64,000 nucleotides of DNA from Mesohalobacter halotolerans (lineage in GTDB: Bacteria > Bacteroidota > Bacteroidia > Flavobacteriales > Flavobacteriaceae), in NCBI RefSeq assembly GCF_006120725.1, contig NZ_SWMU01000001.1:1-64000 (forward strand), written 5' to 3'. Every line of letters starts with the position of its first letter. Position 1 is the first letter of the stretch. The notes below the pieces were generated by a model. That model did not search any database. It had not been told where the DNA came from and was given only the letters and a program-made list of their open reading frames with translations. A program made the translations under genes and the position numbers. Positions 30,379 to 50,123 of this stretch are shown here, one piece after another.

Positions 30379-30424
30379 AATGTTTAAATTTTGGGTTCAC
30401 GACCCGATTATTAAAATTGGTTTG

Positions 30425-37464: not shown

Positions 37465-38388
37465 TTAATTCCTTGCATCGATATCGATGCAAGGAATTTT
37501 TGATTTATAGGTTTTCATTTTTATTTCTGATTGCTTGTGCATTTGATTAGGTGTTAGCATATGGTTTGATAAATGAGGTCGTTCTTGATTGTAAATTTCT
37601 ATGCTTTGTTTTATTAACCTCTTTTTCAATTCTATATTCTTCAGTGTTTTACTTATTCCAAACTCCTGTTTTAATATACCATTTACTCTCTCGGCTACAG
37701 CATTTTCATAAGGATCATATTTTTCGGTCATACTAGTCTCTATATTGTTTGTTTCTAGTAGCTTTTGATAGTCGTTTGAACAATACTGTAAACCTCTATC
37801 TGAGTGATGTATTAGTGGCAATGTGTTCTTTGGTTTATTTTTAATTGCCATTTCTAAGGCGTTCAGTAGTCCTTCTACGTTTAAACTATTTGAGAGATTA
37901 AATCCAACGATTTTCTTAGAATAGGCATCGGTTACTAAAGCTAAATAAGATGGATTTTGCCGTGTGCCTACATAGGTTATGTCAGACACCCAGACCTGAT
38001 CCGGTCTTTCTATTGATAGGCTACTCACTTTATTTTTATGCTTTCTGAACCGATGGTGAGAGTCCGTAGTAATATGATAACTTTTACTTGGTTTTATCAG
38101 TAAATGATTGGCTTTAAGTATCCTAAAGAGTTTATCTCTGCCTATGCTTAATTCATTTAGCTGTTCTTGCAATAGGTAATATATTTTCCTGGTACCTATT
38201 CTAGGCATTTTCATACGAACTTCTAAAACCATATCTACAACTTGTTTAGCAATATTTTGCTTTTTAACTAGTCTTTGCTTTGCTCTATAATATACCTGTC
38301 TGTTTACCCCAAGTAATCCACAGGTAGAAACTATTGTTTCTTTGTGCTTTGTTCTGTACTGGTCGATAACTTGGGTACGTAATTTTTT
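37465..38388 (-). CDS. IS3-family transposase OrfB (DDE integrase)
   Basis: The open frame from the slip site (38388) gives about 307 residues; a later ATG at 38232 gives 255. The region after the slip reads KKLRTQVIDQYRTKHKETI, then an HTH_21-like region, then the rve integrase core. The catalytic triad is visible: WVSDITYVG (first Asp), HHSDRGLQYCS (second Asp) and ENAVAERVNGILKQE (Glu). The C-terminal RPH and NH-MLTPN pattern is normal. It is produced as an OrfAB fusion by programmed frameshifting, as expected for IS3. Confidence 0.92.
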   Translation of the reverse strand, partial: KKLRTQVIDQYRTKHKETIVSTCGLLGVNRQVYYRAKQRLVKKQNIAKQVVDMVLEVRMKMPRIGTRKIYYLLQEQLNELSIGRDKLFRILKANHLLIKPSKSYHITTDSHHRFRKHKNKVSSLSIERPDQVWVSDITYVGTRQNPSYLALVTDAYSKKIVGFNLSNSLNVEGLLNALEMAIKNKPKNTLPLIHHSDRGLQYCSNDYQKLLETNNIETSMTEKYDPYENAVAERVNGILKQEFGISKTLKNIELKKRLIKQSIEIYNQERPHLSNHMLTPNQMHKQSEIKMKTYKSKIPCIDIDARN

Positions 38389-38771
38389 CTGATAGGAATA
38401 TCATATTCTTTCTCAGCCATCTCTACCATCATATCGAAGATAATAGCTTTTTTATCTGCACGCTCGGCTAGATGTTCTACTCTGGCTTTTTGTTTTTCAA
38501 GAAGTTTGATCTTTGCCTCTAGCTCTAAGATCTTTTGTTCAGGGGTTTTAGACATTGTAGCTGGTGTTTGATTCTCCCAATCAAAGTTACCATATTTTTT
38601 TAACCAAGAACGTATAGTTGACCCAGCTTGAATACCGTACTTGCTCAAGGCTTGTGTTCTAGTAAGTAATCCTTGTTCTATTTCGTGAACAACTTGTAAT
38701 TTAAATGAAAGCGTGTAGTCTTTTTGGGTTCGCTTTACATACCCTTTGTTTGTTGATGATTCCATATACAC
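38331..38771 (-). CDS. IS3-family transposase OrfA (helix-turn-helix and leucine zipper)
   Basis: 146 aa. Residues about 15-70 form an HTH (LSFKLQVVHEIEQGLLTRTQALSKYGI), and 80-120 form a coiled coil (ILELEAKIKLLEKQKARVEHL) used for dimerisation. Its frame ends at a TAG inside OrfB's coding region, after the slip site. OrfA alone normally represses transposition. Confidence 0.92.
   Translation of the reverse strand: MYMESSTNKGYVKRTQKDYTLSFKLQVVHEIEQGLLTRTQALSKYGIQAGSTIRSWLKKYGNFDWENQTPATMSKTPEQKILELEAKIKLLEKQKARVEHLAERADKKAIIFDMMVEMAEKEYDIPIRKNYVPKLSTSTEQSTKKQ
38382..38388 (-). promoter_or_regulatory. Programmed -1 ribosomal frameshift site A_AAA_AAT
   Basis: On the minus strand the OrfA codons AGA AAA AAT contain the heptamer A AAA AAT. 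Slipping back one base changes the frame to AAA TTA, giving KKLRT at the start of OrfB. The downstream reading is in the frame of the catalytic domain. This matches the X XXY YYZ pattern used by IS3 elements. No stimulatory hairpin was checked. Confidence 0.8.
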
Positions 38772-38869: not shown

Positions 38870-39643
38870 CTACCAACTCACATCAAAACTTACCCCATTA
38901 TCTAAGGTTATGGTGGCTGTCTGATTACCATTAAAGACTACAGTAGCACCTCTTGTGACGATGTTTCCGTTAGGAAGCGTTGCAGAAAAATCAACGTCAA
39001 ATGTGCCAGACACAATCTGTTGTGTTGATTTTGACACGACAATATCAGTAGAACCATAAATTAATAAGGTATTCATACTGTTTTGGTTGCCAACATTAGA
39101 TTGTATAAACCCATCTCTGGTATGGTTGGCATTATAAACCCATTCTGTCGAAGAAGGCTCAATGCCTGTAATAAAAAACTCGTGAGTTCTCAACATATCT
39201 TTAGATAAATTTGGTCCATCAAATTCCAGACTTCCATTAGCTTCTGAATCAAAACTCACACTATTATTTTGAGCATCGCAATTTAATGTCCAGGTCCAAT
39301 TGGTTTGAACAGACCAACTTCTGGAACCAACCGTATTAGAGTTTTCAAAACTGTTGGATACTGTTTGGTTACAATTTACGGCGCTTAAGTCCATAGCCAT
39401 AGTAGCGTTTTGTTCATTTGATCTGCCCGCAGTATTGTTGTTTAAACTTTCAGCTGTGGTTTGGAGGTCTACTACAATACCACCTTCATATACAAGAGAA
39501 GATTTTAAGATTTCTTGAACCTCTTCATCAGATACAGAAGATTCAATACTTGAACTATCGTCATCTGAGCAGCTTGACATTACAAAGCTACTTAAGCTCA
39601 AAATCAAAAATGTTTTGATAAAAAATTTGCTTGTTGTTTTCAT
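38870..39643 (-). CDS. Surface lipoprotein with acidic export signal, uncharacterised
   Basis: 257 aa with a lipoprotein signal (SSC at residues 22-25) followed by CSDDDSSS, the acidic/serine motif that sends lipoproteins to the cell surface in Bacteroidota. The rest is beta-rich with Asn/Thr/Ser-rich, Trp-containing stretches (SWSVQTNWTWTLNC). No known domain was recognised. Upstream on the minus strand (39717-39701) is CCACTTCACCCTAATTA, which resembles the half-site in the divergent promoter at 42756. Terminator directly downstream. Confidence 0.72.
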   Translation of the reverse strand: MKTTSKFFIKTFLILSLSSFVMSSCSDDDSSSIESSVSDEEVQEILKSSLVYEGGIVVDLQTTAESLNNNTAGRSNEQNATMAMDLSAVNCNQTVSNSFENSNTVGSRSWSVQTNWTWTLNCDAQNNSVSFDSEANGSLEFDGPNLSKDMLRTHEFFITGIEPSSTEWVYNANHTRDGFIQSNVGNQNSMNTLLIYGSTDIVVSKSTQQIVSGTFDVDFSATLPNGNIVTRGATVVFNGNQTATITLDNGVSFDVSW

Positions 39644-39743
39644 AGGTTTAAATTTTTAAAGTTTAATCAAAAATAAATGGATATCAACTTTTAAAATTTG
39701 TAATTAGGGTGAAGTGGAAATTTTTAGGTTTTAAACTGACATA

Positions 39744-40505
39744 TCATCGCCCTAGCCAAGTTTTAAACTCTGAGGCTTTAGCTTTGCTTACAATAATGTC
39801 TTGAGGGCTTTCTGTTTTCATTTTTATTTTTAAGCGCCCATTAAAATAATACCGAATGTCTTCAATATGTTGGCGTTGAATGATGTATTGCCGGTTGGCT
39901 CTATAAAAATCATCGGGGTTGAGCTGTTTTTCTACCTGCTCTAAACTCTCTTGCCATTTGTAAGATTTAGCAGTATTGGTAGCGAGATATACACCGTCAT
40001 CTGCAGTATAGAAAAACACAATATCTCTACTGTTTATCGGAAGTAAGCGATCTTGAAAACTCACCAAAAACGTTTTTTTATAGGTTTGTTTAGTCTTGAT
40101 ATCCTCAAACAAAAACTGCAATTTTTCATTTTGCGCTAGGGCTTGTCCTGTTTGATAAGTTTTGAGCTTTTGTAGGGCTTGCTTGATATCATCACTGGCG
40201 TAAGGTTTCAAAATATAATCGATCCCGTGATGTTTAAACGCATCCAGGGCATATTGATTATAGGCAGTAACAAATACAATAGGAATTCTAGTATCAATGT
40301 CTTTTAAAATTGAAAAACTTAAATCATCGGCCAATTGAATATCTGAAAATATGGCATCTACAGTCGGGTGTGTTTTTAATGCTTTTTCTGTTTCAGACTT
40401 ATCTTGACATATCCCAACAATTTTGACCTCTGAGTCAACTGCGTTTAAGGTTTGACTCAGGAGTTTTGCACTGGCATCTTCATCTTCAATAATGAGTATA
40501 TTCAT
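39744..40505 (-). CDS. LytTR-family response regulator
   Basis: 253 aa. The receiver domain (1-120) has the acidic cluster EDEDA at 7-11, the phospho-acceptor Asp55 in FSDIQLAD, and the Thr/Lys switch residues in FVTAYNQ and YILKPY. The LytTR DNA-binding domain covers about 150-250 (SFQDRLLPINSRDIVFF and FYRANRQYIIQRQHI). LytTR proteins bind direct or inverted repeat sites as dimers. It is 13 bases downstream of the sensor kinase, so the two are one operon. Confidence 0.93.
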   Translation of the reverse strand: MNILIIEDEDASAKLLSQTLNAVDSEVKIVGICQDKSETEKALKTHPTVDAIFSDIQLADDLSFSILKDIDTRIPIVFVTAYNQYALDAFKHHGIDYILKPYASDDIKQALQKLKTYQTGQALAQNEKLQFLFEDIKTKQTYKKTFLVSFQDRLLPINSRDIVFFYTADDGVYLATNTAKSYKWQESLEQVEKQLNPDDFYRANRQYIIQRQHIEDIRYYFNGRLKIKMKTESPQDIIVSKAKASEFKTWLGR

Positions 40506-40518
40506 AATTATGGAGGGT

Positions 40519-41535
40519 TTAAAGGCTTAAGGGCAGACCCACGGAAAAGGTTTCATTTTGTTTTTGTATGATTACACTGTTTTGCTGAGACCATTGTGCT
40601 CGTTTTTGTAAACTACTCAATCCAAAATTTTCACCTTTGACCGGATTTTGTTTGGGTTGTAGATTATGCTCAACCCAGACGTAATTGTCTTTGTTAAATA
40701 TATTAATCTTTAAAGGCTTATCTTTTTTAATCACATTGTGTTTTAAAGCATTTTCAAGTAAAGTTTGCAAGCCCATACTGAGCACTTTTTTCTCATAAGC
40801 CTGAATATCCAGTTTAAAGTTGACTTCAAAAGCCTCACCATATCTCAATTTTTGAAGTTTGATAAAAGCTTCTACAAACTCAATATCGTCTTTAAGTGTC
40901 ACCAAATCGGGTTGGTCGGTTAGACTTTGTCTGAAAATTTTAGACATATAGCTGATGTAATCTGTGGCTTTCTCGGGTTTTTCTGCTACAATTGAAGACA
41001 AACTGTTTAAAGTGTTAAAAAAGAAGTGCGGATTAATTTGATTTTTTAACTGTTGGTGTTGAGCTGTTTTGGTTTCTAATTCTAATTGATGAATACGTTT
41101 TTGTTTGTTTTGGGTTTCTTGATTAAGTATTAAAATCTTAAAAACCAAGATAATTAATGCGACAGACAAAGCATATCTCGCTATATAACCAAAAGCAATA
41201 ATGGGTTTTCTCGTAAATTCAAATAATTCAATATGAATCTTGTAATTAAAAATGACTATGATGAAAAACAGAATGACATTAAAAAGAATCAGAGACCAGA
41301 TAGAATCTTTTAGCTTAAGTCTGCGGCTTCGGTAGGCATAAAAATTGAGGACAAAAACCACAAAGCAAAACAAAATATGAGTAATATACTGATACCAAAA
41401 TTCATCTAAAGAATTAAACTGAAAGCGACTCAAGCGCTGAGGTCTTAAACTTAAAATCAATTTTGATACATTAAAAAGACTAGCTATGAGCCATGACGAA
41501 AGGCTTACATAAAGCCATTGTTTTTTAGTTAACAT
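40519..41535 (-). CDS. LytS-type sensor histidine kinase (His_kinase family)
   Basis: 338 aa, four predicted membrane segments in residues 8-140, a short coiled coil (about 145-165), then the His_kinase domain. The phospho-acceptor region NQINPHFFFNTLNSL is clear near residue 170, and the HATPase region has ENALKHNVIK. The 5TM/7TM ligand domain is absent, so the sensing surface is the short membrane part. It pairs with the LytTR regulator 13 bases downstream. The stimulus is unknown; a neighbouring lipoprotein may provide input. Confidence 0.92.
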   Translation of the reverse strand: MLTKKQWLYVSLSSWLIASLFNVSKLILSLRPQRLSRFQFNSLDEFWYQYITHILFCFVVFVLNFYAYRSRRLKLKDSIWSLILFNVILFFIIVIFNYKIHIELFEFTRKPIIAFGYIARYALSVALIILVFKILILNQETQNKQKRIHQLELETKTAQHQQLKNQINPHFFFNTLNSLSSIVAEKPEKATDYISYMSKIFRQSLTDQPDLVTLKDDIEFVEAFIKLQKLRYGEAFEVNFKLDIQAYEKKVLSMGLQTLLENALKHNVIKKDKPLKINIFNKDNYVWVEHNLQPKQNPVKGENFGLSSLQKRAQWSQQNSVIIQKQNETFSVGLPLSL

Positions 41536-41633
41536 ATTGCCTTTTCAGTCAAAAGTATAAAATAATAAAATGGGATTGAGCTCAATACTCCTTGAAGTGG
41601 ATAAAATGCACGCTAAAACGTCTTATTAGAAAA

Positions 41634-42701
41634 TTAAAGCTTATTGAGCAATAACTCATCGGTATCGCCGTCTGAACTTGTATCAATGAGTGAAAGTGTT
41701 ACCCCATTATCAAAACTTACAACTTCCCAATCGTCATCCATGTCTCCAAAATCAGAATCGTCAAAATCTAAATCGAATATGATCACATTATCTTCAACGC
41801 TAGCGGTCCATTGACCAACCACCTCAAAATCTTGATCCACATCGTCGTCATCAGCAATGATGCTGTTGTTTTCTTCAAATCTGAAGACATAGTCTGTAAA
41901 GTCAAATATCTCTTCCCCATCACTCGTTAAACCCGATACTATAAAGTCGCCATCAGTCACAAAAGTGATAAATGCATTTAAATTAACGGGATCGCCACCA
42001 CCTGGATCATCATCAGCAACATTGTTAAATAGTAAAGGCTCAAAACAATTTGAAGATAGACCATTGAATGTGATGTTAAACTCATCATTGGAGTTAATCA
42101 ACTGAGTTGTGCCTTCAACATCAGCTTCAATGGGGTATTCAAGCTGATAGAAAAACCCATTTTGACTTAAGTCTTCTAAAAAGTTGAAAAGCTGAGCGCG
42201 ATTATTAATCGTTTGTGTATCTATAAATGTATTAGAAAGGTCAAAAAATTGGAGAGAAATTGGAAAAACAATCTCTACACAATTCACTTCGTCTGAAGCA
42301 TTTAAACTTTGTAAAAATTGAGAAAGCTCACTTTCTGAATTGATAGTTTGTGAATTATAATTGACTGTTGAAACAGATGCTGGAAAATTTAAATCGATTT
42401 CATCTTCAATAGGCGTGGCTTCTAGCACGTCAATCAAGTTTTGATAATCTGTGATGTTATCCAAGTTGATATTAGTTGTAGAATTAACGGTAACTTCAAA
42501 CGGAAAATCTACTGAAATTTTACTAGAATTATCAATAAAATTATCAAACGCAGTCGGGTTTTGCGTGAGTCGTTTGAGGTTTTGGGTCAATGCAGAATTT
42601 ACACTCAAACCGTTTTCGTTATTGACGATTTCAGTATCTTCTTCGCTTTGGCAAGCGATAAGCATTAAGAGGAAAAAAAATAAAAGGTAACTTTTCATCA
42701 T
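41634..42701 (-). CDS. Lipoprotein with duplicated secreted domains
   Basis: About 355 aa from the ATG at 42701 (a reading from 42731 would add ten residues before the signal peptide). Lipobox region LMLIAC, with no acidic cluster directly after Cys other than QSEEDTE. Residues about 35-215 contain two related stretches (FPFEVTVNSTTNI and FPISLQFFDLSNTF) with -LINS-type motifs. The C-terminal 110 residues contain DFTDYVFRFE and DDDWEVVSFDNGVTLSL, matching the DUF-like domain of the 155-aa lipoprotein at 45332. Divergent from the T9SS gene, sharing a promoter region with a perfect inverted repeat. Confidence 0.72.
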   Translation of the reverse strand: MMKSYLLFFFLLMLIACQSEEDTEIVNNENGLSVNSALTQNLKRLTQNPTAFDNFIDNSSKISVDFPFEVTVNSTTNINLDNITDYQNLIDVLEATPIEDEIDLNFPASVSTVNYNSQTINSESELSQFLQSLNASDEVNCVEIVFPISLQFFDLSNTFIDTQTINNRAQLFNFLEDLSQNGFFYQLEYPIEADVEGTTQLINSNDEFNITFNGLSSNCFEPLLFNNVADDDPGGGDPVNLNAFITFVTDGDFIVSGLTSDGEEIFDFTDYVFRFEENNSIIADDDDVDQDFEVVGQWTASVEDNVIIFDLDFDDSDFGDMDDDWEVVSFDNGVTLSLIDTSSDGDTDELLLNKL

Positions 42702-42755
42702 ATGATATTCAAATTTAATGATATTTCTCATATACAGAACATTTCAAAAGAGTTT

Positions 42756-42774
42756 CACCCTAATAAGTAGGGTG
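42756..42774. promoter_or_regulatory. Inverted repeat CACCCTA-N5-TAGGGTG in divergent promoter region
   Basis: A perfect 7-bp inverted repeat with 5-base spacer, placed between the divergent lipoprotein gene (42701, minus) and T9SS gene (42822, plus). Such symmetry is typical of an operator for a dimeric regulator. Nearby regulator genes are LytTR (39744), Crp/Fnr (44414) and ECF sigma (46204). The binding protein is not known. Confidence 0.55.
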
Positions 42775-42804
42775 TTTTTGTTTAAAATTGTTTTGTAACT
42801 GAAT
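42765..42804 (+). promoter_or_regulatory. Bipartite upstream motif, copy A
   Basis: AAGTAGGGT, then 13 bases, then ATTGTTTTGTAACTGAAT. The same two blocks with exactly the same 13-base gap occur at 46120-46159 upstream of the sigma-factor gene, with 25 of 27 outside positions identical. It overlaps the right arm of the inverted repeat at 42756 and ends 17 bases before the ATG of the T9SS gene, so it probably includes that gene's promoter. Confidence 0.55.
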
Positions 42805-42821
42805 CCGATAACTTTTTAATT

Positions 42822-44381
42822 ATGAAACTTTTTACGCTTCTTTTTTCATTATTGAGCTTTTCTTTAATTACAGCTCAGAACATCAATTGGGAAAAACTCG
42901 ATATAGACAATGCTCTTGGCAAAGCCACAACTGTAGATAATCAAGGGAATGTCATTACTGTTGGTGCCGGACCAATGAATACAAACTCTGCAGGTGTTTT
43001 TGTTAAAAAATATGATGCCAATGGAACCTTACTTTTTGAGAGCTTTGAAACTGCTATCCAGCAGCAGACCTCGGGCGTTTTAGAACAAGCCAGACCGCTT
43101 GAAGTCATTACCGATAGTCAAGATAATATTATTGTAGTTGGATTTCGCTTTCACACCGATAATACAACTTGCCCTCTACCACCTTGTATTGTGACGCGCT
43201 CCAATAAGATATGGAAATTTAGTCCAACAGGACAGCTTATTTTTAATAAAACTTTTGACGATCACGGGCGCGGTGCCTTTGTTGGTGTAGATAGCAATGA
43301 TAATATTTTTGTGAATGGAACAGGTCTAATTACCGACACAAATAATGACACAGAATTTGGCACTATTTTAATCAAATTGGCTCCTGATGGCACAACGCTT
43401 TTTACAGATGTTCGGGATGTTGTAGGCACTGGAAATAGTATTGAAATGGGTGTAATGGATATGGGTAATAATTTTGTCGCAGTGGCCAATGTCACTACTT
43501 TCGATACCAAATTAACAGCTTGGGATGCTAGCGGAAACTTGCTCTGGACTGTTACTTTAGATGATAGTATAGACACTTTAAAAAGTATAAGCGTTGATGA
43601 AACAACCAACGACACCTATATTTTAGCAGATAGTTTTCCACCCAATCCTATCGTTTCTAAAATTGATAGCAATGGTAATATCGTTTATACCCAAACTTAC
43701 AGCTTAGGTGAACAAGTCGTTTCTAATGGACTTGAATTCATTAATAGCAATCAACTGGTTTTTGCATCAGCAACTTGGTCAGATTTAGGAAATGATTCAA
43801 CACTACATACAAATGTAATCAATACTTCAGATGGATCTGTAGCTCAAAATACGACTTACACTTTAGCACAAAATTTATCTCGAGTTAGAGCTTTAGAAGT
43901 TCATCCTAGCAATGGCAGTTATTATGTTGGAATAAACTCTACAACCAATGGTGGCATGCCATCTTCAGGGACTTTACACGCTTATAATATCAATTCTAAT
44001 AACGAATGGCACGCCACTTACAATGCATCTAATGACATTAGAGCTTTAGCCGTGAGTGTCAATAATGAAGTTTATTTAATGACCGATAATCAATGGAATT
44101 TAGCACAGTTTTCTACTACACTATCTCAAGATGATTTTCAAACTGAACACTTCAAACTTTACCCCAATCCTGTCCGACAAGAATTGTTTATAAGTTCAAT
44201 TGATAATACTGAGCTCAAAAGCATTCAAATTTATGATGTGTTTGGTAAAATGATTTGGAATACGAATACGGTTAAGAATATATCAGGCATAAACTTTTCT
44301 AAATATGAAAATGGTGTTTATTTTGTAAAGTTAAATACTAAAACTGGTAAAGCCCAAACCCATAAAATTATAAAACAATAA
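42822..44381 (+). CDS. Secreted beta-propeller-like protein with type A T9SS sorting domain
   Basis: 519 aa with a signal peptide (1-18). Residues about 25-430 carry repeated NxxGN-I/V-xxxG and DSNGNI-type motifs (for example DNQGNVITVGAG and DSQDNIIVVGFR), consistent with a WD/SBBP-like propeller. The C-terminal 75 residues form a T9SS type A sorting domain: LYPNPVRQELFI, then IQIYDVFGKMI, then YENGVYFVKLNT and a KIIKQ end. It should be exported through T9SS and attached or released at the surface. The function of the propeller is unknown. Confidence 0.88.
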   Translation: MKLFTLLFSLLSFSLITAQNINWEKLDIDNALGKATTVDNQGNVITVGAGPMNTNSAGVFVKKYDANGTLLFESFETAIQQQTSGVLEQARPLEVITDSQDNIIVVGFRFHTDNTTCPLPPCIVTRSNKIWKFSPTGQLIFNKTFDDHGRGAFVGVDSNDNIFVNGTGLITDTNNDTEFGTILIKLAPDGTTLFTDVRDVVGTGNSIEMGVMDMGNNFVAVANVTTFDTKLTAWDASGNLLWTVTLDDSIDTLKSISVDETTNDTYILADSFPPNPIVSKIDSNGNIVYTQTYSLGEQVVSNGLEFINSNQLVFASATWSDLGNDSTLHTNVINTSDGSVAQNTTYTLAQNLSRVRALEVHPSNGSYYVGINSTTNGGMPSSGTLHAYNINSNNEWHATYNASNDIRALAVSVNNEVYLMTDNQWNLAQFSTTLSQDDFQTEHFKLYPNPVRQELFISSIDNTELKSIQIYDVFGKMIWNTNTVKNISGINFSKYENGVYFVKLNTKTGKAQTHKIIKQ

Positions 44382-44413
44382 AATTTGATGGCGTTTTTAA
44401 GCAATAAAACATC

Positions 44414-45040
44414 ATGAGGCAAAGTAAAGATAAACTAACTTTTTTAAGTCCGGATTTAGCAAATACGATTTTAGAGTTGTCTAATATTAAAGCGTTTCCC
44501 AAAGGCAGTGTAATACTAAAGGAAAACCAATACATCAAGACCTTACCTATTCTCATAGATGGTCTTATTAAAGTCTATGCCCATTATGATGATAAAGAGT
44601 TGCTGCTATATTATATTCAAGAATCTCAAAGCTGTATCATGACGTTTTATGCGTCATTAGAAAATACTTCTAGTAAAGTTACAGCAATAACAGAGGAAGA
44701 CTCAAAACTCATATTACTCCCGATTAGGCATTTAGCAAACTTGATTAAAGATTTTCCGGAATTTAATGAATTATTTTACAATCAATTTAATCTTAGATAT
44801 GTTGAGCTCATCGAAAGATTAGGCCATCTGCTAGTAGACAATTTGGATAAAAGACTATACGATCATTTAAAAAATAAGTCAGATTTAACAAAGAGTACAT
44901 CAATTATAATCAGCCACAATCAACTTGCCAAAGAACTAGGAACGGCGCGAGAGGTTGTGTCAAGAACCTTAAAAAAACTTGAAAAGGCTCATAAAATCAC
45001 TCAAAATTCTGGTGAAATAAAAATTGTTGGATCCTGGTGA
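44414..45040 (+). CDS. Crp/Fnr-family transcriptional regulator
   Basis: 208 aa. The N-terminal cyclic-nucleotide-binding-type barrel covers about 20-115, without the Arg/Ser residues of a typical cAMP pocket and without an Fnr-type Cys cluster. The winged-helix HTH spans about 160-205, with NQLAKELGTAREVVSRTLKKLEK as the recognition helix. It starts 32 bases after the T9SS gene. A GTGA-N6-TCAC palindrome sits on its own stop codon and in front of the next gene, so it likely controls that gene. Confidence 0.9.
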   Translation: MRQSKDKLTFLSPDLANTILELSNIKAFPKGSVILKENQYIKTLPILIDGLIKVYAHYDDKELLLYYIQESQSCIMTFYASLENTSSKVTAITEEDSKLILLPIRHLANLIKDFPEFNELFYNQFNLRYVELIERLGHLLVDNLDKRLYDHLKNKSDLTKSTSIIISHNQLAKELGTAREVVSRTLKKLEKAHKITQNSGEIKIVGSW

Positions 45041-45050
45041 CCTTAGTCAC
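45037..45050. promoter_or_regulatory. Crp/Fnr-type operator, GTGACCTTAGTCAC
   Basis: A perfect inverted repeat. Its TGA-N6-TCA core has the same spacing as Crp/Fnr sites. It overlaps the regulator's stop codon and lies 66 bases before the DUF2892 start. Confidence 0.6.
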
Positions 45051-45115
45051 TGCATACAATTCCTAAACTTATTATTTTTACATAAAATAACATTAACCTT
45101 TTAAATTGAATTGAG

Positions 45116-45325
45116 ATGAAAAAAAACATGGGTTCAGCAGACAAAATTATTAGAATTATAATCGCTGCAGTAGTCGCTGTTCTGTATTTTACAGGAACAA
45201 TTTCAGGAACATTAGGTATTGTACTTCTCGTTTTGGCTGGAATATTTGTATTGACCAGCTTGGTAAGTTTTTGCCCACTTTATGCCCCATTTGGGATAAA
45301 AACCTGTTCTTTGAAAAAAAAATAA
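45116..45325 (+). CDS. DUF2892 small membrane protein
   Basis: 69 aa with two membrane segments (about 10-30 and 35-55). The start KKNMGSADKIIRIIIA and the loop with SFCPLYAPFGI are typical of DUF2892 (YgaP C-terminal-like) proteins, often found fused or adjacent to rhodaneses. The C-terminal CPLYAPFG-x-KTCS has two cysteines that might act in sulfur handling. A Crp/Fnr regulator is directly upstream and its likely operator lies between them. Confidence 0.85.
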   Translation: MKKNMGSADKIIRIIIAAVVAVLYFTGTISGTLGIVLLVLAGIFVLTSLVSFCPLYAPFGIKTCSLKKK

Positions 45326-45331
45326 TATGTT

Positions 45332-45799
45332 ATGAGAACAACACAATCCTCTTTTTTAATCATTGGATGTTTCAGTCTGCTACTATTAATATCTTGTAGC
45401 AGCGATGACGATAGCAGTCCAATCAATATCTCACCAGACGAGGTTGAAAATACAATGCAAAACGGCACTTGGCGCATTACAAATTTTGTAGATTCCGGAA
45501 TAAATGAAACCGAAGACTTTACAGGTTACAACTTTACTTTTGAAAGTTCAGGTATATTAAATGCTAGTGATGGAAACAACAACTTTAGCGGTATCTGGAG
45601 TGTAACCAACAGTAATAGCAACGATGATAGTCCAGATGATAGCGATTTAGATTTTAATATCAATTTTAATTTTCCACAGGATTTCCAAGATTTAAGCGAC
45701 GATTGGGATATCATCTCTCATTCTCCAAACAAAATCGAGCTAACCGATGTGAGTGGAGGCAACGGAGAAACTGATTTTTTGACCTTTGAGATAAATTGA
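45332..45799 (+). CDS. Small surface lipoprotein sharing a domain with the 42701 lipoprotein
   Basis: 155 aa. The lipobox is LLISC, followed by SSDDDSSP, an acidic surface-export signal. Residues 45-155 contain TFESSG, SDDWDIISHSPNKIELTDVSGG and end in DFLTFEIN. The same ordered motifs appear in the C-terminal part of the lipoprotein at 41634-42701 (YVFRFE, DDDWEVVSFDNGVTLSLID). This is a paralogous secreted domain that I cannot name. It is 6 bases after the DUF2892 stop, so co-transcribed with it. Confidence 0.8.
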   Translation: MRTTQSSFLIIGCFSLLLLISCSSDDDSSPINISPDEVENTMQNGTWRITNFVDSGINETEDFTGYNFTFESSGILNASDGNNNFSGIWSVTNSNSNDDSPDDSDLDFNINFNFPQDFQDLSDDWDIISHSPNKIELTDVSGGNGETDFLTFEIN

Positions 45800-46203
45800 A
45801 GTCAATATATTTAGAAAATATATCACAAAATTTTATTTTAAAGTCCTGAGAACATTCAACTTTCAAAGAATGAAGCTTTACCATATCTGTCATTGCTAAC
45901 ATATCAAACTCTTACATACCAGCTATATTCCTGTAGATGGAAGAGCTAGAGAAGGTGTTTTTTAAAGTTTAAAACCACACAGAACTCAAGTATAATAAAT
46001 TTATAAATATATTTATAACACTACTTCTGTACGATAAATATTATAAACACAATTATAATATAATATATAGCACATCGAAATTATAATTATAGTTTATAAA
46101 AAAATTATCAAATCCAAAAAAGTAGGGTCAAGTCCCTCTGAATTGTTTTATAATTGAATTGAAAACGGTTTACAATAAAACCTAATACGGCTAAATATAT
46201 CAT
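45800..46203. other. Very AT-rich intergenic stretch before the sigma-factor gene
   Basis: About 400 bases without a credible gene. The stretch 46000-46110 is almost only A and T. It contains an upstream motif (46120-46159) related to that at 42765. No terminator hairpin was clear after the lipoprotein. Confidence 0.6.
46120..46159 (+). promoter_or_regulatory. Bipartite upstream motif, copy B
   Basis: AAGTAGGGT, 13 bases, ATTGTTTTATAATTGAAT. It matches copy A at 42765-42804 in both blocks and spacing. An inverted AGGG-N6-CCCT lies inside it (46124-46137). The sigma-factor ATG is 44 bases downstream of its end. Confidence 0.55.
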
Positions 46204-46722
46204 ATGTCGCTAAAATCATTATCGCATGTTTGTCAAGAAAAAATATACGCTTCGCTATTCGATAAATACGCAGAAGACATCAACCGCTTTTTCTTTTATA
46301 AGTATGGCAATAAAATCGCTGCAGAAGAAGCGGTTCAAGAAGCCTTCATTAAACTGTGGGAAAATTGCAAAAACGTACCGGTAGAAAAAGCCAAATCTTA
46401 TTTATTTACAGTAGCTAATAATATTTCGCTCAATGCGATAAAGCATCAAAAAGTAGTTTTAAGATATGCCAAAGAACAACCACAAAAGAAAGAAGATCAA
46501 CAAGACCCGGCTTATAAGTTGGAAGAAGAAGAGTTTAAACAAAAACTCCAAAGAGCTATTGGGGAATTAAAACCTAAACAACGTACTACATTTTTATTGC
46601 ACAGAATAGATGGTAAAACCTATAAAGAAATTGCAGAAATTGAAAATGTCAGTATAAAAGCCATAGAAAAACGTATGAGTCAAGCCCTTGCACAACTCAG
46701 ACAACATATTGAACAGATATAA
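46204..46722 (+). CDS. ECF RNA polymerase sigma factor (FecI-like)
   Basis: 172 aa. Region 2 (about 20-90) has DKYAEDINRFFFYKYG and AEEAVQEAFIKLWEN; region 4 (about 115-170) has LKPKQRTTFLLHRIDGKTYKEIAEIENVSIKAIEKRMSQAL, the DNA-binding HTH. Bacteroidota ECF factors of this type are controlled by a neighbouring FecR anti-sigma factor and respond to a surface receptor. It precedes fecR by 10 bases. Confidence 0.93.
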   Translation: MSLKSLSHVCQEKIYASLFDKYAEDINRFFFYKYGNKIAAEEAVQEAFIKLWENCKNVPVEKAKSYLFTVANNISLNAIKHQKVVLRYAKEQPQKKEDQQDPAYKLEEEEFKQKLQRAIGELKPKQRTTFLLHRIDGKTYKEIAEIENVSIKAIEKRMSQALAQLRQHIEQI

Positions 46723-46732
46723 AAACAAGACG

Positions 46733-47626
46733 ATGGAGACGAAAAATACATTAGCACAATGGATAGATGGTCAATCTGATTTTCCAGAAGATATCCAGGC
46801 ACGTGAAATTTACGAAAATATTAAGCATTACTCCGCTCAGCTCGAAGCCCCAACGTTTGAAAAGGTTAAGGTTTTTAAAACGATCAAAAACACAAGAGCT
46901 TCAAAAACTCAAACCCGTCCTAGTATAAAATCCTATGCATTTAAAATCGCTGCGATATTGGTTTTGGCTGCTGGCTTGTTGGTGTTTTTAAAAGCAATTA
47001 CTAAGGCTGAATTTACAACTAAAGTGGCACAAAGTCAAACCATTCAACTTCCAGACCAATCTAACGTACTTTTGCAACCTGGCTCAAGCTTAAGTTATAA
47101 CGACTACTTTTGGTTTCTGAACCGTGAAGTAAAACTTGAAGGAGAAGCTTTTTTTGAGGTCGCCAAAGGTGAAACCTTTACTGTAAAAACCGCTAATGGC
47201 GAAGTTAAGGTCTTAGGCACTAAATTTAATGTCAAAACCTTTCATGATGAACTCCAGGTAATGTGTTATGAAGGCCGTGTTGAAGTTTCACAAAACAATC
47301 TCTCTGATGTGATTACTCCCAACGAGTTTATAGTTTTAAGTGGTGGTGAAATTAGTAAAGAAACGCTTCAATTAAAAGAATTACCCTCAAAATCTGGATA
47401 TTTCCAAATCATCAATTCAAATTTTGATATTTTGATTAAGGATGTAGAACGTTACTACGGTGTAGACATTAATTCTAAACAAATTGAAACCAATAAAAGC
47501 TTTACAGGTCAACTCCCTAAAAACGATGTTAAAAAAGCCTTAGACATCATATCTAAAACATATCAAGTGCGATATAACACAATCAACGAAAATAATTTTA
47601 TTTTTGTTGGTGATGAAGGATATTAA
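46733..47626 (+). CDS. FecR-like anti-sigma factor with DUF4974
   Basis: About 297 aa from the ATG at 46733 (10 bases after the sigma stop); an upstream in-frame start at 46688 would lie inside the sigma gene. The cytoplasmic part is short; a membrane segment runs about 65-85 (AAILVLAAGLLVFLKAI); the FecR domain follows (VKLEGEAFFEVAKGETFTV), then DUF4974 (FNSNFDILIKDVERYYGVDI and KSFTGQLP). It holds the sigma factor at the membrane until a receptor signal arrives. Its end overlaps the TonB receptor start. Confidence 0.92.
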   Translation: METKNTLAQWIDGQSDFPEDIQAREIYENIKHYSAQLEAPTFEKVKVFKTIKNTRASKTQTRPSIKSYAFKIAAILVLAAGLLVFLKAITKAEFTTKVAQSQTIQLPDQSNVLLQPGSSLSYNDYFWFLNREVKLEGEAFFEVAKGETFTVKTANGEVKVLGTKFNVKTFHDELQVMCYEGRVEVSQNNLSDVITPNEFIVLSGGEISKETLQLKELPSKSGYFQIINSNFDILIKDVERYYGVDINSKQIETNKSFTGQLPKNDVKKALDIISKTYQVRYNTINENNFIFVGDEGY

Positions 47627-50123
47627 ATTTTGTGTTTATGTTTTGGTGTTGTTGATTCCTGTTTTATCAATAGCCCAAAACCAAATACCACTAGTAGATT
47701 ACCTCAACCGCATAGAAAATGAAAAGTCTGTGCGGTTTAACTATCTCCAGCAAGATGTCAAAACTTTAGAAATCACAACGACAAACACCAATCAAGCCTT
47801 ACAAAACATATTTAATCAAATCTCAACCCAACTTCCTATTAGCTTTGAATGGATTGATAATACCAATATTGTTGTTAAACGTCTAAGTCAATTTTATTGC
47901 CTCAAAGTTTTATCTGAAAACCTTAACCAAGCATTGAGTAATGTTTATGTAGAATCTCATGAGAATATTATCAAAACCTATCAAAACGGAACGGTCTTTT
48001 TTACAAATAAGCCAAAGAGTAAAACATTAAAACTTTTTAAAGATGGCTATGCTGTAGAAGAAATTGAAGTGGAAAGCCTCCAACCCAACGACTGTAAAAT
48101 TGTAAAATTAACCCGTCAAATCAATTTAGATGAAATTCAATTAATTGGTTATCTAACCAAAGGTCTCAACCTCAACTCAGATTTATCTATAAGTCTAAAT
48201 CCTAAAGAATTTGAAATTCTTGCAGGCTTAACCCAACCTGATGTTTTACAAACCATGCAATATGTGCCAGGCATCGTGAGTTTAGATGAACGCATTTCCA
48301 ACATCAATGTGCGAGGTGGCACACACGACCAAAATTTATTTCTGTGGAATGGCGCTCGACTGTATCAAACCGGACATTTTTATGGGATGATTTCGGCTTT
48401 AAATCCTTCTATTGCTCATCAAGTCAACATTTATAAAAATGGTAGCTCCGCCTTTTACACCGAAGGTTTATCATCGGTTGTAGATATTTCATCAGCCGCA
48501 AAACCTTTAGACCAATCTGAATTTGAACTATTTGCAAACTTTTTGGAAACAGCCGGAAAAGCCGATATCGCTTTATCAGATCATTCACAACTCAGAGTGG
48601 CAGGTCGATACGCTTTTTCAGATATTTTTGACACCCCAACTTTTGAAAATTACTACGACAAGATTTTTCAAAACACAGAAATTTCAGCTTTAAGTACCAA
48701 TGAAAATTTAAGACTTTCATCCGATGTAGATTTACAGTATTACGATGCCAATCTCCAGTTTCAAACGGCTTTTAACGACAATACAACTTGGCAAATTAAT
48801 GCTATGGCGATTTCAAATGAGCTCTTATTTGTTGAAGAAAACATCAACACACAAGACCAAAAAGATAACTACCTCACCCAAGAGTCTTATGTGGTGTCAA
48901 CACAACTTGATAAAAACCTATCTGAAAACGTATCTTTATCTTCTCTGGCATATCTCTCCTATTATAAACTTGAAGGTGAAAATGCTTCGGTCTTAAATAA
49001 TCAATTGCTGAATCAAACTAATGAAGTTCTAGATTATGGTCTAAAATTAAGAAGTGATTTTGAGCTTTCTGAGCAATACAAATTCAGCTTAGGTTATCAG
49101 TTTAATGAAATAGGCATTAGAAATGATAATATCGTAAATATTCCAGAAGTTGAAATTCGTCAAAAATCGGTTTTACAAACGCACGCAGGTATTGTTGAAT
49201 TTAAAGCTTCAAATTTTGATCATAAACTCAAAACAACTTTAGGCTTACGTGCTAATTATTACGATAAATTTTCTGAGTTCAAGTTTGAACCCCATCTCAA
49301 CATGTCTTTTGCTATTATCCCGAGTTTTGATGTGGTATTGATGGCAGAGCAAAAACACCAAGTTACAGCTCAGGTGATTGATTTACAAAACGATTTTTTT
49401 GGAATTGAAAAACGGCGTTGGGTTCTCGCTAACGAAAATGAAACCCCAATTCAACGTTTAAGACAAGTTGAAATAGGTCAGGTATTTAACAAGAGCTCTT
49501 GGCTACTGACAGCAAACCTGTTTTATAAAAACGTAGAACGTATCACTTCGGCGAGTCAAAATTTTCAAAACCAATTAGAATTTTTACAACTCTCCGGAGA
49601 TTACCAAACCTATGGTGCTGAATTTTTAGTGCAAAAACAATTGCAAAATTTCAGATTATGGCTAAACTACACCTATAATGACAGTGAATATGAATTTGAT
49701 GAATTTTCACCTTCAGTTTTTCCCAATAATTTTGAAACTTCACATCATGCAGAAACCGGTTTAAGCTATACCACGACAAAAGTGAAATTGAGCTTGAGCG
49801 GTCGTTTTTTTACAGGTCGCCCAACTACTCCAATTGACCAAGATATGCCTATTTCAAACCCGGATACAAACCCTGATATCAATTTTTTAGACCCCAATTC
49901 AGATCATATCACAGAATATTCACAGGTCAATTTTACAGGAAGTTATACGTTTTTATGGTCAAAATTCAAAGCTGAAATAGGTTTAGCTATTCTAAACTTA
50001 TTTAACACAAACAATACCACTAATCAGTTTTTTCGATTAAGCAACGACATTCTAGAAGTGGAACGTATCGAAAATCAAGGTTTGGAATTTACACCAAATG
50101 CATTTTTAAAAATAAACTTTTAA
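47613..50123 (+). CDS. TonB-dependent receptor with STN signalling domain
   Basis: About 836 aa from the ATG at 47613; an ATG at 47604 is 9 bases upstream in frame. Signal peptide, then an STN-like domain (about 20-95, SVRFNYLQQD...), a carboxypeptidase-like Ig segment (about 96-170), a plug domain with VPGIVSLDERISNINVRGG and a barrel ending in FLKINF. The order of sigma, FecR, STN-TonB receptor is the Fec-type cell-surface signalling layout. Substrate unknown; no SusD partner follows, so it is not a classic Sus system. Convergent with ilvE, 4 bases overlap. Confidence 0.9.
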   Translation: MKDIKFCVYVLVLLIPVLSIAQNQIPLVDYLNRIENEKSVRFNYLQQDVKTLEITTTNTNQALQNIFNQISTQLPISFEWIDNTNIVVKRLSQFYCLKVLSENLNQALSNVYVESHENIIKTYQNGTVFFTNKPKSKTLKLFKDGYAVEEIEVESLQPNDCKIVKLTRQINLDEIQLIGYLTKGLNLNSDLSISLNPKEFEILAGLTQPDVLQTMQYVPGIVSLDERISNINVRGGTHDQNLFLWNGARLYQTGHFYGMISALNPSIAHQVNIYKNGSSAFYTEGLSSVVDISSAAKPLDQSEFELFANFLETAGKADIALSDHSQLRVAGRYAFSDIFDTPTFENYYDKIFQNTEISALSTNENLRLSSDVDLQYYDANLQFQTAFNDNTTWQINAMAISNELLFVEENINTQDQKDNYLTQESYVVSTQLDKNLSENVSLSSLAYLSYYKLEGENASVLNNQLLNQTNEVLDYGLKLRSDFELSEQYKFSLGYQFNEIGIRNDNIVNIPEVEIRQKSVLQTHAGIVEFKASNFDHKLKTTLGLRANYYDKFSEFKFEPHLNMSFAIIPSFDVVLMAEQKHQVTAQVIDLQNDFFGIEKRRWVLANENETPIQRLRQVEIGQVFNKSSWLLTANLFYKNVERITSASQNFQNQLEFLQLSGDYQTYGAEFLVQKQLQNFRLWLNYTYNDSEYEFDEFSPSVFPNNFETSHHAETGLSYTTTKVKLSLSGRFFTGRPTTPIDQDMPISNPDTNPDINFLDPNSDHITEYSQVNFTGSYTFLWSKFKAEIGLAILNLFNTNNTTNQFFRLSNDILEVERIENQGLEFTPNAFLKINF

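Follow-up and report, generated by a model that had tools for sequence, protein, structure and literature searches.

A FecI/FecR/FecA-type gene module with predicted surface-lipoprotein outputs in a composite locus of Mesohalobacter halotolerans

Does the gene cluster at positions 38,870 to 50,123 of a 64,000-nucleotide stretch of the Mesohalobacter halotolerans genome (contig NZ_SWMU01000001.1, positions 1 to 64,000 of the forward strand; hereafter the window) encode one envelope-signalling system or several? The first-pass annotation of this DNA had proposed a single one, made of three lipoproteins, a LytS/LytTR pair, a beta-propeller protein of the type IX secretion system (T9SS), a Crp/Fnr regulator with an operator, a DUF2892 protein and a sigma factor/FecR/STN-receptor module. 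All of the named genes (lettered A to K here) are present, and their families were confirmed by Pfam and NCBIfam matches together with lipoboxes, those of A, D and H being read by eye. Gene order in relatives led us to reject a single 11-kb system and to split it into a sigma module and two separate units. The core, comprising lipoprotein D, the extracytoplasmic function (ECF) sigma factor I, the FecR protein J and the TonB-dependent receptor K, is likely to be a cell-surface signalling system of the FecI/FecR/FecA type with surface lipoproteins as outputs. The features bearing on this reading are the following.

41634-42731, minus strand: D, lipoprotein of 365 amino acids with QSEED after the lipidated cysteine; sigma I is divergent to it in relatives
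42738-42762, minus strand: predicted ECF promoter of D, TAGGGT-N15-TGTT (motif scan and comparison of loci)
42768-42792, plus strand: predicted ECF promoter of E (motif scan)
42822-44381, plus strand: E, secreted T9SS protein, beta-propeller (Por_Secre_tail over cut-off)
45332-45799, plus strand: H, lipoprotein sharing the domain of the D C terminus (BLASTP and hhalign)
46123-46147, plus strand: predicted ECF promoter of the sigma-FecR-receptor operon (motif scan)
46204-46722, plus strand: I, ECF sigma factor, FecI-like (PF04542, 38.8 bits, and PF08281, 62.4 bits, both over cut-off)
46733-47626, plus strand: J, FecR anti-sigma factor/regulator, ATG at 46733 (PF04773, 66 bits; PF16344, 37.3 bits)
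47613-50123, plus strand: K, TonB-dependent receptor with an N-terminal STN-like signalling domain, ATG at 47613 (Plug over cut-off)

A search with D found a match in 23 of the 27 genomes of the genus, its own included; the other 26 genomes comprised 17 with a near-full-length D, five with shorter or paralogue-type matches only and four with none. The genus comparison covered those 17 D regions and three paralogous regions. Sigma, FecR and receptor adjoin D on the opposite strand in all 17. The propeller gene E lies between D and sigma in one of these regions only, that of the closest relative (L058, a contig stretch also labelled L108), where D is 79% identical to window D, the sigma module and E are kept, and the E copy, 92% identical to window E, sits directly upstream of sigma. 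Three Flavobacterium-type loci (L127, L136 and L158) have relatives of E, 26-29% identical, that sit between the sigma and FecR genes. The structure model of E gave many beta-propeller matches at a low model confidence (pLDDT 59.6). The window, L058 and L059 (the same as L109) share their flanks, with a thiamine-binding protein and pnuC on one side and ilvE, truncated in L059 where the contig ends, on the other, so that genes came and went at one chromosomal site.

Across the family, the D profile matched 210 of 299 genomes and 174 of 236 genera. Sigma is adjacent and divergent to D in each of the 29 best family loci, a set that includes the genus once (in L105 sigma is cut by the contig end). 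A second sample, made up of the 80 best loci out of 216 from named genomes, overlaps the 17 genus regions, as the same genus genomes occur in both; here we found matches to sigma in 77 loci, FecR in 76, receptor in 73 and H in 62. Sigma is divergent to D in 77 of the 80, the three misses having D less than 90 bases from a contig end, and the D/sigma gap is shorter than 350 nt in 75 of 77, a propeller gene intervening in L108 and L158. Outside the genus, many D proteins lie in open frames of about 600 amino acids that carry additional H-like domains after the first one, and the gene of a separate H-like lipoprotein is often found downstream of D; H probably belongs to the sigma module by ancestry. 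The genome of M. halotolerans also holds a second, paralogous module (C1:855416-860158, L075), in which a shorter D without the barrel domain faces sigma, FecR and receptor; TAGGGT-N15-TGTT, described below, is absent from its 19.5-kb stretch.

Three components expected of a FecI/FecR/FecA-type path were found: an ECF sigma factor with sigma2 and sigma4 domains, FecR beside it, and a TonB receptor with an STN-like domain. No STN family model matched K, nor did K have a PDB relative by sequence at E 0.01; its N-terminal domain is homologous to the C-terminal domain of J (hhalign 97.1%, E 6.6e-11, vs 0.3% for the middle domain of J as control), the relationship to be expected if the receptor signals to FecR. 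For receptors whose match began only at about residue 174, absence of an STN domain was at one point assumed, a reading dropped because the L237 sequence has an N-terminal stretch there.

From the gaps between D and sigma we defined a motif that reads toward D and consists of TAGGGT, 15 bases and TGTT. A first form, GTAGGG...TTTTRTAA, was discarded, as half of the four hits it gave in the genome were unrelated (one in an open reading frame (ORF) on the opposite strand, one without an ORF behind it). Of the 77 D/sigma gaps, 66 contain the motif in the orientation toward D (13/13 in Psychroflexus and near relatives, 53/64 elsewhere), against mean counts of 0.015 of 13 and 0.13 of 64 in dinucleotide-shuffled gaps. 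The spacer is 15 in all 66 gaps; spacers of 14 and 16 gave no match, and among those from 8 to 24 only 11, 20 and 23 matched besides 15 (3, 2 and 2 loci). The motif also precedes FecR in 65 of 76 loci. Over the 80 loci (1,459,174 bases) we counted 181 motif sites, vs 5 of the reversed pattern, and according to BLAST the genes behind them were 67 D, 63 FecR, 13 lipoproteins of a family called L here, 10 sigma, 6 matched to E (one of them, in L152, solely through the T9SS tail), 3 matched to H and 16 others, three sites having no ORF. The median distance from motif start to start codon was 47-74 nt, depending on gene class. The L family consists of lipoproteins with PepSY-like and DUF4382-like matches, mostly below Pfam cut-offs. 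Most of the 16 other genes start with a signal peptide or lipobox, as judged by eye; those scanned include, above Pfam cut-offs, ApbE, Rieske, ankyrin and CAP proteins as well as a DUF4382 lipoprotein, and, just below, a cytochrome-c-like lipoprotein.

In seven of the 77 loci (L171, L172, L180, L182, L184, L185 and L186) the first box is replaced at the same place, for example by TTCAGGAC or TTCAGTAG; TTGTT is retained in six of them and L172 has CGGTT. The sigma factors of these seven loci form one clade in the sigma tree (support 100/98), and the first box thus changes with the sigma clade, as expected if sigma region 4 reads it. We infer that TAGGGT-N15-TGTT is very probably the promoter recognised by sigma I.

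The window contains three mismatch-free sites, placed before D, E and sigma, and the shared upstream motifs seen at the first pass are in this sense confirmed; with up to one mismatch there are 10 sites vs 3.85 expected, and none of 100 shuffles reached 10. An inverted repeat at 42756-42774 contains the first boxes of both the D and E promoters. The three predicted window promoters are also among the 10 sites that a 10-base pattern gave in the own genome. A fourth, at C1:628058 (L192), is in an intergenic position, 62 nt upstream of the gene for this genome's L lipoprotein (C1:628058-629139, 339 amino acids, PepSY-like/DUF4382-like; L192, L243), about 585 kb from the window module; five of the other six are within ORFs of more than 120 amino acids and one has no ORF behind it. 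The L family carries the motif near D in 9 of 13 named Psychroflexus-group loci. A motif before a distant L lipoprotein whose relatives adjoin D in other Psychroflexus gives independent support for the assignment. Together, the motif sites outline a coherent predicted regulon, the distant L lipoprotein included.

D represents an unnamed lipoprotein family, with no Pfam or NCBIfam family over cut-off. Its structure model (pLDDT 87) has N-terminal beta-hairpin/helix repeats and a C-terminal lipocalin-like barrel; the barrel (residues 251-365, block pLDDT 83-96) is of the eight-stranded lipocalin type, which for H is indicated by homology only. The structural alignments span about residues 235-365 only. 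The nearest structures are Bacteroides lipocalin-like proteins and Tannerella potempin E, with Z about 11 (4qrl: Z 11.2, 97 residues, root-mean-square deviation 2.6), and a PDB sequence search with D gave only two weak matches (E 0.04-0.05). D and H share the C-terminal domain (BLASTP 2e-4; hhalign 99.4%, 8e-22), which bears out the earlier observation of a domain linking separate genes. For H, NCBIfam also gave one weak hit, to BSAP-5i immunity proteins (24.5 bits vs a cut-off of 150). The residues from the lipidated cysteine onward, read by eye, are CQSEED in D, CSSDDD in H and CSDDDS in A, polar and acidic in each case. They resemble the lipoprotein surface-export signal whose consensus is given as QKDDE, SDDFE or SDDDD in PMC5080379, and on this resemblance D, H and A are predicted to be surface-exposed.

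The path that we propose would start with receptor K in the outer membrane binding an extracellular ligand. Its STN-like domain would contact the homologous C-terminal domain of J, which would then allow sigma I to guide RNA polymerase to TAGGGT-15 nt-TGTT promoters. In the own genome the predicted targets would be D and, divergently, the T9SS propeller E, the sigma-FecR-receptor operon and, at a distance of about 585 kb, the L lipoprotein. The proposed place of D, and elsewhere of H, is the cell surface, where they may capture the ligand, present it or shield the cell against it. Crp/Fnr regulator F would control G and, here, H through its operator, and LytS/LytTR with A would be an unrelated neighbour.

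Several points weigh against this reading. Strict motifs are lacking from 11 of 77 D gaps (four of these keep TAGGGT with xGTT), from the stretches examined at six further D loci (L234-L239), and from the position before FecR in 11 of 76 loci and likewise in the window, where FecR would be read from the sigma promoter. A whole-genome search with TAGGGTN{14,17}GTTNTNTA returned exactly the three window hits and the reversed control also 3, and the 10-base pattern gave its 10 own-genome sites vs 7 for the control; a motif count in one genome alone proves nothing, and it is the comparison across loci that decides. Since several of the loci come from close relatives, counts are not independent, and the samples used were the best 80 of 216 and the best 29. 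The co-variation of sigma and -35 box rests on one clade, hence on one event, in a long-branched tree. Sigma autoregulation is not general, the sigma-side motif being restricted to Psychroflexus (11 of 13 gaps there, 0 of 64 elsewhere). Finally, what is shown is the gene content, its conservation, the domain homology and a conserved motif; recognition of the motif by sigma I, the signalling steps, control by Crp/Fnr, surface exposure and ligand binding are inferred. As to the sigma side, the gaps outside the genus contain a TAnnTTTG box in 33 of 64 cases vs 11 in shuffles, a box known for the primary sigma factor from PMC9723704; sigma is therefore probably transcribed by the primary sigma factor outside the genus, while D and the FecR-receptor genes respond, and in Psychroflexus the sigma gene probably joined its own regulon.

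Two other sets of genes share the 11 kb with the core.

38870-39643, minus strand: A, lipoprotein with SDDDS after the cysteine; neighbour accompanying LytTR
39744-40505, minus strand: B, LytTR response regulator (PF04397, 79.7 bits); neighbour of the core
40519-41535, minus strand: C, LytS-type histidine kinase (PF06580, 89.6 bits); neighbour, outside the core
44414-45040, plus strand: F, Crp/Fnr-type regulator (family match)
45037-45050, plus strand: palindrome GTGACCTTAGTCAC, likely operator of F, overlapping the end of F and preceding G
45116-45325, plus strand: G, YgaP-like transmembrane protein (DUF2892, now PF11127 YgaP-like_TM; 81.6 bits)

Close relatives of F (43-62%) were found at 15 loci among 199 genomes searched, with G behind F in all 15 and a TGAC-N4-GTCA palindrome between the two in 14, as in the window (GTGAC-N4-GTCAC); none of 14 more distant F loci has it. 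The palindrome taken as an operator at the first pass is confirmed as a sequence feature, and it is the window's sole perfect match to the pattern. Regulator, predicted operator and DUF2892 gene form a second conserved unit with its own standing. H follows G in L201, L205 and, more weakly (36%), L211, and in L209 and L212 the four genes are consecutive in the order D-H-F-G, the only such joins among the loci seen. In L239, which belongs to the genome of L212, the genes that follow encode a DUF4382 lipoprotein and a metallo-beta-lactamase/rhodanese protein. The G-H spacing in the window is 6 nt; this gap and the placement of H in relatives suggest that window H is probably under the predicted Crp/Fnr operator, elsewhere being under the sigma promoter. 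In the H tree the nearest row by path is the H behind the DUF2892 gene of L205, with no supported clade, and the best BLAST score of window H is to an H behind D (L134). F, G and H are absent from all 17 genus stretches at E 1e-4.

LytS, LytTR and lipoprotein A are a rare separate set. Matches to A occur in 5 of 199 family genomes, the own included, with LytTR near A in two others. Within the genus, LytTR and A stand beside D, with LytS, in L059 only, and in L071 a LytS-like stretch (27%) lies at about 3 kb from D.

The surroundings gave some further observations. An insertion sequence element at 37465-38771, left of A, has two ORFs and an integrase core match; we take it to be of the IS3 type, and it is single-copy in the genome, its only other match being its own short palindrome. 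The stretch 45950-46149, from H to the sigma promoter, is very AT-rich (19-20% GC vs 34% in the surroundings) and is possibly the scar of an insertion or deletion that parted D and E from sigma. An S16-Flavobacteria ribosomal protein leader lies at 30383-30415 on the minus strand (RF03138, 42.8 bits). Sigma-70 promoter and terminator scans of the window were uninformative (68 promoter-like sites vs 57 expected), a repeat search in the window found only short imperfect repeats, and a megablast plasmid search gave zero matches.

How do other explanations fare? That the whole 11 kb is one envelope-signalling system, in which the LytS/LytTR, Crp/Fnr and sigma regulons overlap, has in its favour the adjacency of the genes, the recurrence of LytS/LytTR/A beside D in L109 and of a LytS-like kinase stretch near D in L071, the junction of F-G with D-H in L209 and L212, and an H common to the sigma module and the F-G unit. 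Yet F or G is found in none of the 80 named loci at E 1e-4, LytTR and A in one (L109), and A in 5 of 199 genomes; L108 keeps the sigma module and E but has none of A, B, C, F, G or H alongside. Conservation elsewhere in the Flavobacteriaceae, the check suggested at the first pass, is strong for D, sigma, FecR and receptor, often with an H-like protein or domain; the full set occurs in none of the loci examined, and we regard the single system as highly improbable. The motif might instead be an operator of another regulator or a variant housekeeping promoter. Its function is a prediction, and the frequent housekeeping TAnnTTTG in sigma-side gaps tells of other promoters in the region; against this stand its fixed spacing and orientation, its distance of about 50 nt to the start codon, its position at genes of the sigma module and the joint change of first box and sigma clade, which make such an identity unlikely.

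Two further alternatives concern what the module is for. A TonB receptor, FecR, an ECF sigma factor and a surface lipoprotein are the layout of many Bacteroidetes uptake loci, and surface glycan-binding proteins are among the structures with which the lipocalin-like barrel aligns (Z about 9), as a SusC/SusD-type glycan uptake locus under an ECF sigma factor would lead one to expect; but A, D and H have no SusD match (Pfam, E 0.1) and the window genes scanned include no carbohydrate-active family, so that we hold this very unlikely. Instead of capturing a ligand, D and H could also act at the surface as inhibitors or immunity lipoproteins whose expression is induced by an attack on the receptor (protease, bacteriocin). 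The alignment of the D barrel with potempin E and the weak BSAP-5i match of H would fit, but anonymous Bacteroides lipocalin-like proteins match equally well and a shared barrel shows no function; we consider this role doubtful. A FecI/FecR/FecA-type module with surface-lipoprotein outputs remains the reading that we prefer.

The module is of a known mechanistic kind, with new outputs and a specific promoter code. It has in common with the FecI/FecR/FecA system for ferric citrate in E. coli (PMC9249621) an ECF sigma factor, FecR and a TonB receptor with an N-terminal signalling domain, and sigma is here predicted to drive the receptor operon. It differs in that the predicted outputs include divergent lipoproteins and a T9SS protein, with no ABC transport family among the genes scanned from A to ilvE, and in that the window sigma gene itself carries a predicted promoter, whereas fecIR is stated in that paper not to be autoregulated. 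Motif SM6 of Flavobacterium psychrophilum is likewise an ECF promoter in Flavobacteriaceae; it has a CGT -10 box and T9SS-machinery targets, and TAGGG was not found in the main text of PMC9723704. As for two-component systems of the LytS/LytTR type, C and B have the PF06580 kinase and LytTR, linked here to lipoprotein A and outside the core. SusC/SusD loci share with the module a TonB receptor and a surface lipoprotein; here there is no SusD match and the lipoprotein is divergently transcribed.

In other genera, five motif sites (L145 15658 -, L151 12476 +, L156 12265 +, L161 7929 + and L159 8168 -) precede genes for ApbE, cytochrome-c-like lipoproteins and a Rieske protein. These genes are possible redox outputs of the same promoter type, from which one might guess at metal or cofactor sensing.

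Relatives of K occur in 104 of 149 genomes, ECF sigma/FecR/TonB-receptor sets being common in Flavobacteriaceae. To our knowledge, the targets of these sets are mostly unknown. The core is a widespread flavobacterial sensing system, apparently undescribed as judged by titles and abstract openings in the open-licence literature, a scope that leaves subscription papers aside and novelty unproven. We give roughly even odds to a broader proposition: that a family-wide system of the Flavobacteriaceae uses a dedicated ECF sigma factor with its own promoter code to answer a receptor and remodel the surface through the D family and interchangeable barrel lipoproteins such as H, the same effector being wired to sigma or, here, to a Crp/Fnr operator, with outputs elsewhere that include flavin, haem and iron-sulfur redox proteins. 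The sigma clade with the replaced box offers a natural case for mapping the specificity of sigma region 4. For one ECF sigma/FecR/receptor set there is now a specific promoter prediction, together with predicted targets and a lipoprotein family that has no name yet, which suggests how a flavobacterium may alter its surface upon receptor engagement.

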